The notes: generated by a model not told the origin, from the sequence alone. A stretch of DNA of 32,071 bases from Archaeoglobales archaeon (GCA_003662995.1 QMZC01000022.1:1-32071); one strand, 5' to 3'; positions 5,733-21,702 are shown, numbered from the stretch's first letter. Translations and numbers: made by a program.

Positions 5733-5780
5733 GATTAAAGTTTTGAGAGAGGTTAAAAAATTGTTGTTTTTAATCTTGAA

Positions 5781-7631
5781 TCATTTAGCCATCCTTAACC
5801 CGTTTGCCACCGCCAGCAATTCTGATGCTTCGTGAATTAAAACGGCAGTTGTTGCACTAAGCAATCCGAGTAGGGCAGAAGGAACCATAAATGCTAAAAT
5901 TAAAATGGAAAAAATGATGTTTTGAAGGCTGATGAACTTTGCCCTTCTCCCAAGTTAATTGCGTAGGGAACTTTAAGTAAATCATTACCCGTTAAAGCCA
6001 CGTCTGCAGCTTCAATTGCTACATCAGCACCAACACCCATTGCAATTCCAACAGTGGCAGTTGCTAAGGCAGGAGCATCGTTTATACCATCACCAACCAT
6101 CGCAATGTGAAACTCACGTTTTAAATTGTTGATGACCTCCACTTTATCCTCCGGTTTTAAATTTGCCCTAACGAAATCGATTCCCACCTCTTTAGCTATT
6201 GTTCTTGCAACTCTTTCGTTATCTCCCGTTAGCATTACAGCTTTGATTCCTAATTTATGCAATTCTTCAACTGTCTTCTTAGCTTCCTGCCTAACTTCAT
6301 CTTGAAATGCTATTATTCCTTCCACATCGCTTTCATCGCCAATAAGTATTGCTGTTTTACCCTCACTACTAAATTTTTCAATGTATTTGTATGCTTTTTC
6401 TCCAAAAAGTTCCGATTTGCCAGCATAGTACTCTTTACCATCAATTTTAGCCTTTACACCTACACCGGTGATAACTTTGAAGTCCTCAACTTCAAGTGGC
6501 TTTAAACCCATCTCTTCTGCTTTTTCAACTATCTGTTTAGCCAATGGATGTTCTGAAAATCTCTCAAGGGTGTAAGCAAGTCTTAAAAACTCTTCTTGGT
6601 TGCTGTTTAGTGGAACTACATCTGTTATAGTTGGTTTTCCTATGGTGAGTGTTCCTGTCTTATCAAAAGCCACTACATCAATCTTTCCAAGATTTTCAAG
6701 ATGTATTCCACCTTTAATCAGCACTCCACTTCTGCTTGCCCTTCCTATTCCTGCAGCAATTGCTATGGGTGTGGACATAACCAAAGCACACGGAGCGGCT
6801 GCGACCAACAGAACAACGCCCCTCCTCATAAGTTCTGAATCCAATCCAAATATTGGAGGACTGAAAATAGGAGAAGTGATACAAGCAAAACGAGAGGAGT
6901 ATATTTTTCCCCCAAACCTCTCAATAAACAACTGTGTTCTGCTTTTTTGTTCCTGAGCCTCTTCTACAAGCTTGATTAACTTTGACAGAGAACTATCCTT
7001 GAAGGTTGCAATAGCATTTACAACCAAAATACCGTCCAGATTTATTGTGCCTGCAAATACTTTCATTCCTACTTCTTTTTCAACAGGAATTGATTCTCCC
7101 GTGAGCGTGGATTCATCTATGCTTGCCTTTCCATCTACAATAATTCCGTCCGTTGGAATCAACTCCCCGGGTTTAACAATGAAGTAATCTCCAATTCTAA
7201 GCTCTTCAGCCGGAATTTCTTTTTCAATTTCATTTCTCAAAACTCTGGCTTTAGAGGGCATCATTTTAAGCAGTTCTCTTATTGAACTCCTCGTTCTTGT
7301 ATAAGCGTACTCTTCAATCCCTTCAGCGGTACCATACAGAAACACTAAAAAAGCTGCCTCATCCCACATATCGAGAAGTAGTGAACCCAATGTAGCAGCA
7401 ACCATCAACACTTCTATTCCTACTTTTTTTTCCAATCAACTTTCTTAAACCTTCCAGAACCCAGTGATATGCACCAATTGGGATTGCAACTAAATAAATC
7501 AAAATTTTGATGTTTAATGGGATAATGTTGAGTTGAAATAGTAAAAACACCAGTCCGATAAGCAAGCCTGCCAAAATTGCGTTGCGTAGTGGCGGATATC
7601 GATACCACACCCCATCATAAAATTCGCCCAT
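5781..7631 (-). pseudogene. P1B-type heavy-metal P-type ATPase, frame-damaged
   Basis: Joining frames gives about 616 residues without an N-terminal metal-binding domain, close to P1B-4 ATPase size. Core motifs are present: T-G-E-S, D-K-T-G-T-L-T (phosphorylated Asp), S-E-H-P-L-A, M-L-T-G-D and G-D-G-I-N-D-A-P. The membrane metal site reads A-P-C rather than C-P-C, and the final helix carries I-H-E-A-S-E, resembling the H-E-G-x-T of P1B-4 pumps. Four indels break it: one extra A in the eight-A run at 7424-7431; one extra G in the five-G run at 6909-6913, compensated near 6860 after about 17 wrong residues in a membrane helix; and a lost base near 5946-5952 that removes the final two helices. 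It begins 1 nt after the arsR stop, so it was a metal-export operon (Zn, Cd or Co likely). Sequencing error is possible at the homopolymers. Confidence 0.85.
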
Positions 7632-7632
7632 C

Positions 7633-7959
7633 TTAACCCCTCAATTCGTTGATGTGTCTCAATGCCATCTCGAGAATTTCAGCCACATGGTCATCATCAA
7701 GGCTGTAGTAAACGTTTCTCCCCTCACGTCTGTACTTTACAAGTCTCTTGTCCCTCAAAATTCTGAGTTGATGGGAGACTGCTGACACAGACAACTTCGT
7801 TATCGCTGCAATATCACACGTGCAAAGCTCCTTTTGTAACAACGCAAGGAGGATTTTTATTCTAGAAGAATCACTAAACGCCTCTAAAAATTCAGCCAAT
7901 TCCACTATTTTCTCATCTGAGGGTAATTTGGATGATATTTCATCAACATTTTTTACCAT
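7633..7959 (-). CDS. ArsR/SmtB-family metal-sensing repressor
   Basis: 108 residues from ATG 7959. It is a winged-helix repressor: F-S-D-S-S-R-I-K-I-L-L-A-L-L, then the recognition helix S-V-S-A-V-S-H-Q-L-R-I-L-R, then the wing R-R-E-G-R-N-V-Y-Y-S-L. The C-terminal helix reads D-D-D-H-V...R-H-I-N-E, with D-x-H, H at +11 and E at +14, exactly the alpha-5 zinc site of SmtB. E-L-C-T-C-D-I provides the C-x-C of the alpha-3 site of CadC. A TTG at 7977 would add six residues including a Cys, but those codons lie inside the operator palindrome and the TATA box would be too close, so ATG 7959 is preferred. It should sense Zn, Cd or Co and repress itself and the ATPase. Confidence 0.9.
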   Translation of the reverse strand: MVKNVDEISSKLPSDEKIVELAEFLEAFSDSSRIKILLALLQKELCTCDIAAITKLSVSAVSHQLRILRDKRLVKYRREGRNVYYSLDDDHVAEILEMALRHINELRG

Positions 7960-7979
7960 ATTTGAACAATTGTTCAAAT
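7960..7979. promoter_or_regulatory. ArsR/SmtB operator, perfect 20-bp palindrome
   Basis: ATTTGAACAATTGTTCAAAT is perfectly palindromic and contains TGAACA-AT-TGTTCA, the 6-2-6 form of known SmtB/CadC/CzrA sites. It fills the space between the TATA box and the arsR start codon, so a bound repressor would cover the transcription start. Confidence 0.85.
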
Positions 7980-9779: not shown

Positions 9780-9848
9780 AGCAAATTAAACATATCTGCA
9801 AAACAAAAAATTTAAGACTTAATATTTTAATTTTTTATCGGTGATACC

Positions 9849-10247
9849 ATGCCGAAATTCTTCAGTCAAGAGTGGATTGAAGAATACGTTAAAGCGATAA
9901 ACGAGAGTGAAGATTATGAAAGAGCTGCAAAGGATTGGGAAGGAGATTTTCTCTTTGTCGTTGAACCTGACGGTGAAGGGGAGCCATTGTACGCCTACAT
10001 TGATTTATACCATGGAAAAGCGAGAAAGGGCTTTGTTGTTGATGACCCCTCCAAGGTCAATGCAGCTTTTGAGTTTAGAGGAAAGTCATCAAACTGGAAG
10101 AAACTACTTAGCGGTGAGATAGATCCAATAAAGGGATTGATTACTGGAAAATTTAAGCTGAAGGGAAACATGGCGATGGTTATGAGGTATGCAAAGGCTG
10201 CAAAGGTTCTTGTTGATTTAACAAAGAGGGTTGAGACTGAGTGGTAG
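9849..10247 (+). CDS. SCP2-like sterol/lipid-binding domain protein
   Basis: 132 residues consisting of one SCP2-type domain: an N-terminal helix (SQEWIEEYVKAINES), strands through DFLFVVEPDG, YAYIDLYHGKA and NAAFEFRG, the helix W-K-K-L-L-S-G-E-I-D-P-I-K-G-L-I-T-G, then K-F-K-L-K-G-N-M-A-M-V-M-R-Y-A-K-A-A, the standard SCP2 ending. Such domains carry hydrophobic acyl or sterol-like ligands in a tunnel. The start follows GGTGATACC. The alcohol dehydrogenase begins 1 nt after its stop and the aldehyde oxidoreductase follows, suggesting that it presents a hydrophobic alcohol or aldehyde to them (inference). Confidence 0.85.
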   Translation: MPKFFSQEWIEEYVKAINESEDYERAAKDWEGDFLFVVEPDGEGEPLYAYIDLYHGKARKGFVVDDPSKVNAAFEFRGKSSNWKKLLSGEIDPIKGLITGKFKLKGNMAMVMRYAKAAKVLVDLTKRVETEW

Positions 10248-10248
10248 T

Positions 10249-11382
10249 ATGTGGTGGTTTTCATCTCCAAAGATAATCTTTGGTGAGGATTCCCTAGATT
10301 TCTTGGACAGGTTAGATGGTAAAGTTTTGATTATTACAGATGAAAACCTTATAAAGGCTTGTGTTTTGGATAAGGTGACGGCAAAGCTAAGCGAATATGA
10401 AATATTTGATGAAGTTAAGCCAGACCCATCCTTTGAAGTTGTTGTTAGAGCCGTTAAACACGCAAAACGTTACAAACCAGACCTTATATTTGGGGTTGGA
10501 GGCGGATCATCGCTTGACGTTGCTAAGGGTGTTAGGCTGATCTACGACAATCCCAACATCGAATTGGAAGAGGTTACACCTTGGACAGATTTAGAAGTAA
10601 AAACAAAGCTCATCTTAATCCCAACAGCTAGCGGAAGTGGGAGTGAGGCATCGAACGCAATAGTTCTAACAAAGGAGGATGAGAACAGAAAGATTGCATC
10701 AATCAATCCCGCTGTAATGGCGGACTACGCAATTGTGGATCCTGAAATGGTTAAAAGTTTGCCAAAGAAGGTTGCTGCCTTTACGGGCTTAGATGCTTTA
10801 TCCCATGCAATTGATGCATACGTCTCTGCTTGGAAGAATGATTTTGTAGATGGAATTTGTATTCAGGCTTGTAAGCTGTTGTTTGAATACTTGCCTAGGG
10901 CTTACAAAGATAGAGAAGATGCCGAGGCAGTTGAGAAAGTCCATAATGCCGCCACATTAGCTGGTTTAGCCATAGGCTCTTCACAAGCTGGATTGTCACA
11001 TGCAATAGGGCATTCGCTGGCCATTTTCCACATCCCCCATGGATTTGCCTGTGGTGTCGTTTTACCATACACGATCCAATACTATTCGAAGTATGCTAAG
11101 GAGTATTACGAGGAGTTAGCTTATCACGTTGGTTTGCACGATGTTGAGCAATTGGTGGAGAAAATTAAAGATTTAATGGTTGCGATTGACACGCCAACAA
11201 ACCTTAGGGAACTTTTGGAAGAGTATGGGGTAAGTAAAGAAGAGTTCTTGGAAAAACTTGACGTGCTTGTTAACAATGCAAGCATGGACAACACGATTGT
11301 TACGCTGCTGGAAATTCCAAGTGATGAAGATTTGAGGAAGATTTTCTTGTATGCGTATGAGGGTAGAGACGTTGATTTTTGA
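10249..11382 (+). CDS. Iron-containing (group III) alcohol dehydrogenase
   Basis: 377 residues from ATG 10249 (MWWFSSPKIIFGEDSLDFL); the frame extends upstream but only into the SCP2 gene. NAD(P) binding: F-G-V-G-G-G-S-S-L-D-V-A-K-G and P-T-A-S-G-S-G-S-E. The iron ligands are all present: Asp in T-G-L-D-A, His in L-S-H-A-I-D-A, His in S-H-A-I-G-H, and His in P-H-G-F-A-C. It oxidises an alcohol to an aldehyde or the reverse. The SCP2 protein lies directly upstream and the aldehyde oxidoreductase 20 nt downstream, so the aldehyde is probably passed on to the latter. The substrate cannot be read from the sequence. Confidence 0.92.
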   Translation: MWWFSSPKIIFGEDSLDFLDRLDGKVLIITDENLIKACVLDKVTAKLSEYEIFDEVKPDPSFEVVVRAVKHAKRYKPDLIFGVGGGSSLDVAKGVRLIYDNPNIELEEVTPWTDLEVKTKLILIPTASGSGSEASNAIVLTKEDENRKIASINPAVMADYAIVDPEMVKSLPKKVAAFTGLDALSHAIDAYVSAWKNDFVDGICIQACKLLFEYLPRAYKDREDAEAVEKVHNAATLAGLAIGSSQAGLSHAIGHSLAIFHIPHGFACGVVLPYTIQYYSKYAKEYYEELAYHVGLHDVEQLVEKIKDLMVAIDTPTNLRELLEEYGVSKEEFLEKLDVLVNNASMDNTIVTLLEIPSDEDLRKIFLYAYEGRDVDF

Positions 11383-11402
11383 TTTTATTGGGAGGTGCTA
11401 AA

Positions 11403-13183
11403 ATGAGCTATGCAGACAGAATATTAAAGATAGACCTAAATGGAGATACAAAGGAGACGGAGTTGGACAAAAAAATAGCAAAGCAGTTCGTTGGAGGTAG
11501 TGGTTTGGCTGCGTACTACCTCTACAAAATGGGGGTTTACGATTTTGAACCTCTTACAACTAACATCATTGCAATGTTTAATGGGCCTTTAACTGGTACA
11601 GCCCCCTCAACAAGCAGACTTAGTTTTTGTGCAAAGTCACCATTGACTGGAATTTGGGGAGAATCAAACGTTGGGGGGAAGATGGCAGCCTTTCTAAAAT
11701 TTGCTGGCTGGGATGGTGTTATCATACAGGGACAATCAGATAAACCAATCTACATCCACGTCGACGAGAATGGAGCAGAGATAAAGTCTGCTGAAGGTAT
11801 TTGGGGAATGGGTTGTTATGATGCACAAAAAGCGATAGAGAAGGAAGTTAGTGAAAAGAGGGTTTCAACTGCTGTAATTGGACAGGCTGGCGAGAATTTG
11901 GTGAGATATGCATGCATTCAGGTTGACAACTCAAGGCATGCTGGAAGAACAGGGATGGGGGCTGTTTTAGGGGCAAAGAAGATTAAAGGGATTGCTGTGA
12001 GCTACGATGCAAGATATGAGGTTGAATTGGCAGACGAAAAAAAGTTTGAAGAGGAGGTTAAAGCTCTTAATGAAAGAACAAAGAACAATTTTACATGTAA
12101 CATGTTTAAAGAGTTGGGCACGTCAGGCTATGTTGAATCTGCGGAGATGTTTGGAGATTTGCCAGTAAAGTATTTCATACAGGGAACTTTTGAAAAAGCT
12201 TCAGAAATCTCAGGCTCTAAAATGACTCAGACGTTTTTGAAGGGTAATGATGGCTGTTTTGGATGCAGTATTAGATGTGGAAGGGTTGTTGAAATTGATG
12301 GAAAAACTATTCATGGGCCAGAATACGAGACAGTAGCGAGCTTCGGTTCATTGCAATTAATAGATGATTTAAAGAGCTTGATAGAGATAAACTACCTATT
12401 AAACGACTATGGAATTGATTCAATAAGCACTGGGGTTGCAATAGCCTATACGATGTGGTTGAATGATAGGGCATTCACGATTTTGGCATTGAATGGGGAG
12501 ATGCTGGGAGGGTTAAAGAATTAATCAGAAAGATAGCCTTTAAGGAAGGGGAAGGAGCAATTTTGGCAGAAGGTGTAAAAAGGATAGGTGAAAGGTTTAA
12601 AGACGACAATGCAGCTCATGTTAAGGGTTTAGAGATCCCAATGCACGATCCAAGGGCATTTTCAAGCTTAGCCGTTGCTTATGCTGTGCATAACAGGGGA
12701 GCTTGTCATCTTCCACATCAAATGTACAATGTGGAGATGGGATTGAAGATCAGGGAGTATGGAATAATAAGCAAGGATAGATTTTCGTCTGAGAACAAAG
12801 GAATTATTACGGCAAGGATGCAAAACTATACGGAGATGTTCAATTGTGTAACGATGTGTGCATTTATACCAATAAAACCAACCCAGATGGCAAATCTGCT
12901 TGCTTATGCAACGGGCTTCGATTTTGATGTTGATAAGCTTTACTTGACAGGGGAAAGGATATACAACTTGAAAAGGATGTTTAACGTTAAATGTGGTGTT
13001 GATGCGAGAGATGACGTTTTGCCTAAGATAGTACTAAAACCTCTGGAGGGAGGAAGTGAGGGCAATGTGCCAGATTTGGAGTTGCAAAAGAGGGAATACT
13101 ACAAAGAGAGGGGATGGAGTGAAGATGGCATACCGACAAAGGAAAAACTTGAGGAGCTGGGAATCGGTTGGGCTGTTAAATAG
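11403..13183 (+). pseudogene. aor: Aldehyde ferredoxin oxidoreductase, single frameshift
   Basis: The ATG at 11403 follows a strong GGGAGGTG site and opens M-S-Y-A-D-R-I-L-K-I-D-L. The protein carries the tungstopterin-binding N-terminal domain (Q-F-V-G-G-S-G-L-A-A-Y-Y-L, F-N-G-P-L-T-G, S-R-L-S-F-C-A-K-S-P-L-T-G, N-V-G-G) and the cluster-binding C-F-G-C-S-I-R-C with a distal Cys in F-N-V-K-C-G-V. It oxidises aldehydes to acids with ferredoxin. At about 12466-12472 the frame breaks: one reading stops at 12522-12524 after A-F-T-I-L-A, while the -1 alternative continues as G-I-H-D-F-G-I-E-W-G-D-A-G-R-V-K-E-L-I-R-K to 13183. Restoring one base gives about 594 residues, the normal length. Either a recent mutation or a sequence error. 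Confidence 0.88.
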
Positions 13184-17862: not shown

Positions 17863-18540
17863 TTACCTCCTGCGCCACGCTATCAGTATTGATACCGCAA
17901 ACAAAACTTCGATTATTTCAAAACCCGGAGTTTCACTGGGTGTTTTGGATGTTGTGGGAACGTTTGTGGGACTTGCAGAAGTGGGGGTAGTGGTGGGGGC
18001 AGTAATGGTGGGAACAGCTTCGATTTCTGTTTCGTTAATGCAATCAACGTCTTCCCCGTTCAAACAATCAGGATCGCATATCTCATCTTTAACACCATCG
18101 CAGTATCCATCTTCCCCTCCAGATTTACAGTCCTGAGGACAAGATGAATGGTTTTCAGGAATTCCGCAAACCCCATCCCCGCATGTAGTCTCTTCAAAGC
18201 TCAAACCCATAAGCTCAGCTACTTCCACTTCTGTTCCATTCGGTAAAACGCAAACAAGACAGCTCTTGCAATCCTCCCTTTCCACGTGCTTTGCTTCATA
18301 ACCCATTTTAGCGCAATAACTGTAGTCTATGGCAACCTTGCCCTTATAGAAATCCCAAGCATCGACAGCCGTCCCGTTCGGCAAAAGGCATTTTCCCACC
18401 TCACCGTATGGCGATGAAAAGATCACAAATTCATAGCCGAGGGCTTCGCAGTAAACTGCCGAGGGGTTCTTTAAGGCTGAAGTCGTGTATGTGAACAGGA
18501 TCAGCAACAACAACACCAGAATAACCCTCATCAAACTCAT
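17863..18540 (-). CDS. DUF333 surface protein with PGF-CTERM anchor
   Basis: 225 residues from ATG 18540, which overlaps the peptidase stop as TGATG after an AGGAGGTGG site. The signal peptide is M-S-L-M-R-V-I-L-V-L-L-L-L-I-L-F. Two DUF333-type units follow: N-P-S-A-V-Y-C-E-A-L-G-Y-E...C-L-L-P-N-G-T-A-V-D-A-W, then C-A-K-M-G-Y-E...C-V-L-P-N-G-T-E-V. Next is a Cys-rich segment (CGDGVCGIPENHSSCPQDC) and an acidic D-x-x-C-D stretch. A Thr/Pro/Ser stalk leads to T-P-G-F-E-I-I-E, a hydrophobic helix and R-R-R. That ending is the PGF-CTERM signal cut by archaeosortase A, which lipid-anchors archaeal surface proteins. DUF333 proteins have been called hemolysin- or protease-inhibitor-like, and an inhibitor or partner of the coupled peptidase is plausible but unproven. 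Confidence 0.85.
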   Translation of the reverse strand: MSLMRVILVLLLLILFTYTTSALKNPSAVYCEALGYEFVIFSSPYGEVGKCLLPNGTAVDAWDFYKGKVAIDYSYCAKMGYEAKHVEREDCKSCLVCVLPNGTEVEVAELMGLSFEETTCGDGVCGIPENHSSCPQDCKSGGEDGYCDGVKDEICDPDCLNGEDVDCINETEIEAVPTITAPTTTPTSASPTNVPTTSKTPSETPGFEIIEVLFAVSILIAWRRR

Positions 18541-20160
18541 CAAATCCACCTCCTGTATCCTTTTATTATGTGGATTGAGTCTCCACGATCTCCATGCACG
18601 ATATCTGCTTTTTCATCCCCATCAACGTCTGCAACAGCAAATCCGTCTCCAAATTCAAAGTTAAAGCGCATGGACCTCATGAGAACACCATACATGCTGT
18701 AAACTCTGAGCCAGTCGTTTCTGTCAGCATGAATTATTTCCTCAACACCGTTCCCGTCAACATCTCCGCACTGCAACCCATCTCTACCCTCAAAGTCCAG
18801 ACGAAATTCTCTCAGCTTCGTTCCATGCATGTCGTAAATCCTGATCCAATTGTCTCTATCGCCATGCACTATTTCATCCTTTCCGTCTCCATTCACATCT
18901 CCAGCCTCAAGGTCATCTCCCGCCTCAAAGTCCACGTTGAAACTCCTTATTTTGTGGAAGCCTCCAACGTCGCTGTAAATGTCGATCCTGTCATCCCTAT
19001 CTCCATGAATGATCTCTCCAACTCCATCCCCATTCACATCTCCAACTGCTAACTCATCCCACTTTTCAAAGTCCAGATTTGCGCCACCAAAAAATCCATG
19101 AATCGTGTATATCTTGAGATAATCATCCCTGTCTCCCTGGATTATCTCAGCAAACCCATCTCCTTCCTCAAAATCAATATGCAAGGCATAATCAGCGGGA
19201 ACAACATAGTAGGCTCTATTCTTTATATCGCTATATTTGAAACCAGTGTAGGGAATGTAACCGTAACCATTTACATGCCAGACATCGCTGTCCCAGTCGG
19301 TAAAAACGCCCCAGCTATTACGGATTATCCAACATCCAGGTTTGTTGTACTTGTTCATGCAAACCGCACTGTTGTCGTCGTAACCAACAAGAACGATGGC
19401 ATGATGCCAGTTATTTGATCCAACCGATAACGGCCCGTGGCAGATCAAAGCTCTCTTAACATCTTCAATGCTGCTTCCAACTTTGGCTTTGTAAACTGCT
19501 CCTTCAACTCTGTACTTCCAATCACTGCACTTGTTGGAGCAGTCATCATCCCTACCAACATTTGGGAAACATGACTGATCTGGAATGCTGTTGTCAATTA
19601 TGTATGAAAGAGCCTCATGAGCCCATCCACCATCGCAACTGCCCGGACCGCAGCTTATTAAGTACTGCTCCGGGAGGTCTATATTGGGACTTGCATAGGT
19701 GTGAAGAATTAGGACTGCTTCTACAGTTCCAGCTGCCGAATTTGCCCAGCAAGAGCCACATTTCTGATGCCTTATGTGTGGGATGCTTATGTAATCCCTC
19801 CAGTCAAACTTTAATGGTAGAGATGCTAAATTGCATCTATCGCAAGGCAGGCAATGGGTCCTCCCGCAGTCTATGCCTTCTTCATCCCTGTCTTGCACAC
19901 CATCTCTGCACGACATGCCAAAGGTAAAAACTTTTTCTTTGCAATTGTTCCACTCCTTTGGAATCTCATCCACTTTTCTGAAAGATCTGCACATGCGCTA
20001 ACCCTGTTTGTCTCCCACTGGGGAGTCCAGTGGTAGTATCTTGCCGTGTAACTGCTCCCCGGATTCAGAGCGGGTATGTTGATGTCTCCGAGCTTGTGGT
20101 AATTCACGTACACCCCAACATCTGTTGGACTACTTGCTGCACTTCCGATGTTCTTCACAA

Positions 20161-20196
20161 CGATTTTGAGAGTGAGATCGATTTTGAGAGTGAGAT
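20161..20196. repeat. Exact 18-bp tandem duplication in the peptidase gene
   Basis: CGATTTTGAGAGTGAGAT occurs twice in direct succession. The duplication is in frame and gives L-T-L-K-I-D-L-T-L-K-I in the fourth CARDB repeat, lengthening one strand by six residues. Confidence 0.95.
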
Positions 20197-21496
20197 TTGA
20201 AACTCCGGTTCCCGCCTTGGTTATGCTCTCTACTATCAGATCGGGTTTCGGCGGAGGTGGAAATTCGATGCATGTGAATGTTGTCGTTAAATCGTTGTTG
20301 TCTTCGTTAACCTCTTCAACCTTTCCATCCACATCGGCTTTAACTCTTATCTCGTCCGCAGGCATGCTGCATTGCTTCCAGTTGTACTGCACCGCGAAAC
20401 TTTCAATCCTTTTCTCTCCTTGTGCAAGTGGACCGACCCAGTCTTTTGCAATAAGTACGCCATCCACGTACAGTCCGGTATGGGAACTGCATGCATATCC
20501 CTCACCGACGTTGGTAATCTCATAACTGATCCGTGATTTGAGGGGTAAAATTGTACCGTCAGGATACATGGTAAAATCTGTTACCGAGGAGGATATGTTT
20601 GTAATAACAAGGTCCCCACCCTCTGGCGTTACTATGCAACTGGTAGAAAACTGAAATTCATTGTCACCTTCGTTACTCTCTACAACGGTGTCTTGCGAAT
20701 CAACCACCACCCTAATAGCATCCTCATCTCCACTGCACGTGTATTGCAAAGCAACCTCAACAACTGCCGTATCGTTGGGTTGAAGTTCTGGAAGGTGGAA
20801 GGTGTAGCTCCATCGACCGTCTATGTAAATCCTTCCATCAGTTGATGGAGATGTCTGATTTCCCGAATTCCTAATTTCCACGATTATGGGATTGTTCTGA
20901 TAGTTTATGGGGTTGCAGTAATCCGAATAATTGACATAAGCATTTGTTATTTCTATGTTGGGAATTCCGGTCTCTCCCTTTGTGCATTCGTAAGCTCTCT
21001 CAAATTTATTGTTGTTCTCGTCACTTTCCTTTACAACATCTTCTGGATCCACAACGGCTGTGTAAACATTCTGATTTCCTTCGCAGGAATGCGGATATTT
21101 TATAGCTACTACGGTATTTTCTCCCGGACCCAAATCGTAACCGATTGCATTGCCTACGGGAGTTCCATCGACATAGAAAGCCACCTTAAAATTATCTGCA
21201 AAACCGTTGCCCTGATTGTATATCAACGCCCTGACTTCGGAGTAAACTCCGGGAGTGGATTCATAAGGCCATACATCGCTGATGCTCAAATCGGGTGTTC
21301 CCCGCTGATAACAGTACATGGGGATTTTTATCATTGCAGCCGTGTATCCCGAAATCTTGTAACCGCAAAGGTCATTCGAAAGTTTAACGTAATTCTCAAA
21401 ATTCTTAGAAGCATCCTCTTCCGTCAAGCAACTCCAGTTAGCAGGACATTCAACAAAAACATCAAAAGTACAGGATGTTTCGAAGTTATGGCATGT

Positions 21497-21532
21497 GTCC
21501 TTCAACGTGCCTTTCAACGTGCTCTTCAACGT
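21497..21532. repeat. Three 12-bp tandem units in the peptidase gene
   Basis: TTCAACGT recurs at 21501, 21513 and 21525 within near-identical 12-nt units. They encode S-T-L-K-S-T-L-K-G-T-L-K on the minus strand, in frame. Confidence 0.9.
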
Positions 21533-21686
21533 TGAAATGCATATCGCAGGATTGACCGTCCACTGTCCCGTGATACTTGGTTTAAACTTGGATTTTATGT
21601 ACACGTATTTGCCGGGATAAATCGTTATTCCGGTTTTAATTTCGTAATCTCCGTGATTGGTGTGCAGGTAAATCCCCTTCTTTTCC

Positions 21687-21702
21687 GACACCTTGACACC
21701 TT
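21687..21702. repeat. 8-bp tandem duplication causing a frameshift
   Basis: GACACCTT is present twice in direct succession. Removing one copy joins the upstream frame (K-E-S-I-K-V-S) to the downstream one (E-K-K-G-I-Y-L-H-T), so the duplication itself is the frameshift. Unlike a homopolymer change, it is an unlikely sequencing error. Confidence 0.9.

Follow-up and report, generated by a model that had tools for sequence, protein, structure and literature searches.

The window, a 32,071-nucleotide stretch of DNA that forms contig 22 of a 2.6-Mb, 187-contig Archaeoglobaceae genome, carries three closely spaced genes on one strand. These encode an SCP2-like protein, an iron-type alcohol dehydrogenase (ADH), and a tungsten-type aldehyde oxidoreductase (AOR). 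Only 1 nt separates the SCP2 stop from the ADH start, and 20 nt lie between the ADH stop and the AOR start. An earlier note on this DNA had described a tight three-gene set with gaps of this size, and the coordinates, strand, and profile matches all agree with that description. The strong ribosome-binding site that it placed before AOR is also present, as GGGAGGTG at 11390. The features of the locus are collected in Table 1.

Table 1. Features of the SCP2-ADH-AOR locus, numbered from the first nucleotide of the window.
Feature	Position	Strand	Basis
A+T-rich gap, 69 nt, between SIS-domain gene and SCP2	9780..9848	+	Sequence read; GGTGAT precedes ATG
SCP2-like protein, 132 aa, TT1886 (Thermus) type	9849..10247	+	PF02036, E 1.7e-11
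Iron-type (group III) alcohol dehydrogenase (ADH), 377 aa	10249..11382	+	PF00465, PF25137
GGGAGGTG, ribosome-binding-site-like (Shine-Dalgarno-like), 5 nt 5' of AOR ATG	11390..11397	+	Sequence read
AOR first part: pterin-binding N-terminal domain, 4Fe-4S motif CX2CX3C	11403..12470	+	PF02730, PF01314; alignment to 1aor
AOR frame break, one base short of the same-genus copy	12470..12473	+	Alignment; G021 frame intact
AOR second part, other frame: active-site His, fourth 4Fe-4S Cys	12474..13183	+	PF01314 (AFOR_C), positions 157-385

The A+T-rich gap upstream of SCP2 is probably the region in which transcription starts. A promoter scan of this gap, of the bacterial type and so not covering archaeal promoters, returned nothing above chance. 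We also considered whether the three genes belong to a wider operon and rejected this on both sides: coaD and the genes for an NTPase and a SIS-domain protein share their place upstream only with the same-genus locus L003, and the position of alaS downstream is not conserved. One group returned by automatic neighbour grouping (cluster 3) consisted of spurious antisense ORFs and was disregarded.

The frame break in the AOR gene

While AOR had initially been read as a single intact gene, its frame from 11403 ends at 12524 and the remainder lies in another frame that extends to 13183. Alignment to L003, an intact copy from the same genus, shows that one base is missing from the window at approximately 12470 to 12473, inside a G run, and frame 1 continues past this point to a false stop at 12524. 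Both the N- and C-terminal AFOR domains are present, split across the two frames. In a genome of the same genus (G021), AOR is uninterrupted over 619 codons, and the second part of the window AOR is 81% identical to this intact protein.

Other genes in the window appear to be broken in a similar manner. The gene for a P-type metal ATPase (5733-7631, minus strand), which has an ArsR-type regulator gene upstream (7633-7977), contains two apparent frame breaks, near 5950 and, beside an A run, near 7425. Further along, at 18540-21691 on the minus strand, the frame for a papain-family protease with FG-GAP repeats overlaps an ORF that encodes four CARDB domains; together the two look like a single large surface protein interrupted by a frame break near 19930. 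Because the P-type ATPase (twice) and the CARDB/papain-protease frames are broken likewise, the AOR break most likely stems from an error in sequencing or assembly, and real decay is less likely. We rejected a programmed frameshift on account of the intact relatives together with the further frame breaks in the window.

Conservation of the gene order

To place the locus in its class, we surveyed 59 Archaeoglobi genomes, 18 of which carry the short SCP2 type found in the window. SCP2, ADH, and AOR occur on the same strand and in the same order in 17 of these 18; in the lone exception (G032), SCP2 and ADH-AOR lie on separate contigs. The earlier note had held that an order unique to this genome would count against its reading, an objection that the recurrence in other Archaeoglobi removes.

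A collection-wide scan extended this comparison to 80 public SCP2 loci, which were seeded by exact SCP2 peptides and are thus biased toward close relatives. Such seeding makes the seeded motifs look more conserved than they are; seeding alone should not bias the linkage itself. ADH lies directly 3' of SCP2 at 57 of the 80 loci. The full trio, with the ADH-AOR linkage, is seen at 29 of the 80 and in both domains: 10 of these loci are from Archaeoglobi, 14 are from Chloroflexota, and one each is from Bathyarchaeota, another Thermoproteota lineage, Baldrarchaeota, Heimdallarchaeota, and Bipolaricaulota. The median gaps are 44 nt (SCP2-ADH) and 55 nt (ADH-AOR). At a further eight loci, the contig ends after or inside ADH.

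In these comparisons SCP2-ADH is the constant pair and the third enzyme is variable. In Lokiarchaeota (L061, L077), the order is AOR-x-ADH-SCP2. More distant SCP2 homologues elsewhere in the phylum (30-42% identity) have neither ADH nor AOR adjoining, which makes the linkage specific to one SCP2 branch.

Might the three genes be neighbors only by accident of descent? On this reading they would be housekeeping genes kept together by shared ancestry, and the window AOR would be a decaying pseudogene. The varying third position and the frame break both fit this explanation. However, the gene order is retained where SCP2 identity falls to 42-55% and across domains, a phylogenetic spread that largely refutes incidental association, and an error in the sequence accounts for the window AOR better than decay does, given the intact same-genus AOR and the several breaks in other frames of the window. 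We therefore regard this explanation as very improbable. The view of carrier, ADH, and AOR as a functional unit, put forward in the earlier note, has good support from the conservation of the order across phyla and domains, and the three genes probably work together.

Enzyme chemistry and its direction

The window ADH has the metal site D-x3-H...H...H typical of its family (D182, H186, H251, and H264), and D182, H251, and H264 are conserved in 68 of 68 ADHs. The closest solved chains are the alcohol dehydrogenase domains of AdhE and archaeal Fe-ADHs. In eight relatives from Bathyarchaeota, Nitrososphaerota, Thermoproteota, and Baldrarchaeota (L023, L025, L029, L030, L038, L044, L052, and L055), though not in the window, the first metal-site His is replaced by N or Q, which suggests a changed metal site in those proteins.

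For AOR, we used the intact same-genus copy as a query. The nearest solved structure is the Pyrococcus furiosus AOR (1AOR), which matches over the whole length with an E value of 1.6e-109. The four 4Fe-4S cysteines (CX2CX3C plus a distal one), the GPEYE Glu, and the active-site His (CH motif) are present in 49 of 49 AORs. The P. furiosus enzyme shares all of these residues but is distinct in sequence from the cassette AORs, and we know of no SCP2 partner for it.

Phylogenetic analysis places the cassette AORs and their close relatives apart from unlinked paralogues, such as the two in the window's own genome (L121 and L122). AORs of the Archaeoglobi cassettes fall into a single starred clade, together with the unlinked copies of the A. 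fulgidus type and of G032. SCP2-linked ADHs likewise cluster in their own tree, where several deep branches are weak. Since ADH in Ferroglobus/Geoglobus-type genomes is only ~34-41% identical to that of the window, against 70-79% for SCP2, the ADH slot has either diverged quickly or been replaced in place.

The third slot offers a further view of the chemistry. At six Thermoplasmata loci (L014, L015, L017, L022, L042, and L043), AOR is replaced by an unrelated PF00171 aldehyde dehydrogenase, an assignment for which two of the six loci were Pfam-scanned or used as a query. Because two unrelated aldehyde-oxidising enzymes fill the same slot, there is strong evidence that the step predicted to follow ADH is the conversion of aldehyde to acid. 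Enzymes of the PF00171 family that make free acids run oxidatively, and oxidation is favored over reduction for this reason. The alcohol-to-aldehyde-to-acid chemistry proposed in the earlier note has good support from the conserved catalytic residues and from the non-homologous replacement of AOR in Thermoplasmata, and the direction in the cell would be oxidative.

The same enzymes could in principle be used in reverse. AOR would then reduce acids with reduced ferredoxin and ADH would carry the product on to alcohols, as a redox valve or for lipid-alcohol synthesis, with SCP2 carrying the acid or alcohol product. Many carriers of the cassette (Anaerolineae and Bathyarchaeota) are thought to be fermentative. 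Acid reduction by AOR and ADH is, moreover, established in fermenters (PMC10816221). We nevertheless consider reverse use unlikely: the NAD(P)-type aldehyde dehydrogenase in the AOR slot of Thermoplasmata would not permit acid reduction, Archaeoglobi are respiratory, and this type of SCP2 is found next to genes for acyl-CoA dehydrogenase and beta-oxidation.

The SCP2 protein, its likely substrate, and known systems

The window SCP2 matches PF02036 with 44.8 bits (curated cut-off, 21.3), and phmmer relates it to 2cx7/1wfr with an E value of ~1e-18. Its AlphaFold2 model (pLDDT 97.2) has the SCP2 alpha/beta fold, and the top Foldseek match is again 2cx7, with a TM score of 0.88, compared with 0.54 for rabbit SCP2. 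The nearest solved SCP2 by both sequence and fold is thus Thermus thermophilus TT1886 (2CX7, 1WFR), with which the window protein has the WEG and WHG motifs in common. The model resembles ligand-bound SCP2s only at TM scores of ~0.5-0.6, and we found no ligand for the TT1886-type branch. The AF_1534 SCP2 of A. fulgidus (3CNU, 3BN8) shares the fold but represents a different branch that is not linked to ADH-AOR. A shorter gene of the AF_1534 type in the window's genome (G000:C130) adjoins an acyl-CoA dehydrogenase gene, and its product is 24% identical to the window SCP2.

Within the TT1886-type branch, W30-E31-G32-D33-F34 and H55-G56 are invariant among 56 SCP2 sequences. The WEG and HG parts are also found in the Thermus protein, and WEGD/WHG recur in long SCP2 forms that came from a whole-genome search independent of the seed peptides. 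The charged residues of this set (E31, D33, and H55) could serve for docking instead of lipid binding. This raises the question as to whether the cassette is a general utilisation or detoxification unit for short soluble alcohols and aldehydes, in which the SCP2-fold protein would be a docking or activating partner of ADH and not a lipid carrier. The constancy of SCP2-ADH while the third enzyme varies would fit such a unit, as would the invariance of W30, E31, G32, H55, and G56 through the long forms and the Thermus protein. Because known ADH-AOR pairs, those of sulfate reducers, use ethanol and methanol, the ADH-AOR chemistry alone does not require a lipid substrate.

The Lokiarchaeota loci bear on the same question. 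Beyond their cassettes (L061:6481-9763 and L077) come a gene resembling sugar kinases and a 2-hydroxyacid dehydrogenase/aldolase-like fusion. These neighbors, identified by sequence impression, count against a lipid substrate, and the possible aldolase would suit a short-substrate unit. On the other side, every ligand-bound SCP2 fold known to us binds lipid, and SCP2s of the same type lie beside acyl-CoA dehydrogenase without any ADH (L114, L117, L126, and L128), so a role specific to ADH is inadequate. A short-substrate unit with a docking partner is, in our estimate, rather doubtful.

The long SCP2 form (~205 aa, with the WEGD/WHG motifs and a ~70-aa insert after the first strand) provides most of the acyl-CoA context. 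It is encoded directly upstream of acyl-CoA dehydrogenase at L114:4307-4930, L117:4375-4989, L126:3034-3657, and L128:3203-3805. In G001, which we take to be A. fulgidus, and its relatives, the long SCP2 gene is followed by genes for an acyl-CoA dehydrogenase, an acetoacetate-decarboxylase-family protein, and a 3-hydroxyacyl-CoA dehydrogenase. One genome (G053) has two copies: the first SCP2 lies 5' of acyl-CoA dehydrogenase and acyl-CoA synthetase, and the second, of the long form, lies between acyl-CoA dehydrogenase and ADH-AOR. An acyl-CoA synthetase gene is also found upstream of the cassette and divergent from it in Ferroglobus-type genomes (L009, L125), and downstream of ADH on the opposite strand in Bathyarchaeota (L038, L059). 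Against a lipid substrate, the 6 kb around most cassettes hold no acyl-CoA gene. At five loci from Bathyarchaeota and Nitrososphaerota (L029, L030, L044, L052, and L055), a gene for a thiamine-diphosphate enzyme lies convergently right after SCP2-ADH; its product is a possible 2-oxoacid decarboxylase and could be a source of aldehyde.

The SCP2 fold and the occurrence of same-type SCP2s beside acyl-CoA genes lend indirect support to a hydrophobic substrate, and from these contexts our best guess would be a fatty or other acyl-chain compound. Long-chain fatty acid degradation has been reported for A. fulgidus (PMC11948995), and nonanal and decanal are substrates of one AOR (PMC10816221). An orthologous cassette in A. 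fulgidus was sought and rejected. This species has only the ADH-AOR pair, its long SCP2 lying at another site next to acyl-CoA dehydrogenase, and the lack of an adjacent SCP2 counts against a carrier-assisted lipid pathway.

We propose that the locus encodes a conserved, carrier-assisted variant of the ADH-AOR route, by which a poorly water-soluble primary alcohol would be converted to an acid that enters acyl-CoA metabolism; we would give this proposal an even chance of being correct, with reverse use and the short-substrate unit as its chief rivals. The cassette would be co-transcribed, and the alcohol would most likely be a linear or isoprenoid long-chain compound. SCP2 would extract or hold this alcohol, and perhaps the aldehyde and acid as well, in a hydrophobic tunnel and deliver it to the enzymes in the cytosol. 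The iron-type ADH would then oxidise the alcohol to the aldehyde with NAD(P)+, and the W-pterin/4Fe-4S AOR would convert the aldehyde to the acid with reduction of ferredoxin. Activation of the acid to acyl-CoA would allow its entry into beta-oxidation. A more specific version, which we offer tentatively as the less probable of the two, is that SCP2 is a dedicated soluble carrier that hands the lipid alcohol to ADH and the fatty or prenyl aldehyde, a reactive compound, to the tungsten enzyme. Archaea and Chloroflexota would in that case share an undescribed and widespread route by which alcohols from membrane lipids or waxes are recycled anaerobically, and Thermoplasmata would have a version of it that uses an aldehyde dehydrogenase.

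Anoxic sediments are rich in lipid alcohols (phytol, archaeal prenols, and those of waxes and ether lipids) and, to our knowledge, the handling of insoluble alcohols and toxic aldehydes by anaerobic archaea has been little studied. The cassette is a defined, testable candidate for such handling in culturable organisms, presumably Ferroglobus, Geoglobus, and A. sulfaticallidus. It also suggests what an SCP2 branch that has gone unstudied is likely to do and, if the proposal is true, would tie tungsten enzymes to lipid metabolism.

Alcohol oxidation by ADH and AOR has been proposed in sulfate reducers from mutants and proteomics, with ethanol and methanol as substrates (PMC10084766, PMC10907483). 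The ADH and AOR genes are consecutively numbered in D. kuznetsovii (PMC10907483), whereas adh3929 and aor2487 of S. fructosivorans are unlinked (PMC10084766); SCP2 was not found in the passages of either paper that deal with these genes. A paper on tungsten in archaea makes no mention of SCP2, and a literature search, with subscription papers outside its scope, found no description of the cassette and no paper that connects AOR with SCP2 or sterol carrier protein. The SCP2-containing cassette is a variant that we did not find described, built on enzymes and an ADH-AOR route that are already known. The AOR-ADH pathway of sulfate reducers and acid-reducing fermenters employs the same two enzyme families and shares the chemistry from alcohol through aldehyde to acid, with NAD(P)H and ferredoxin, and its known substrates are short alcohols.
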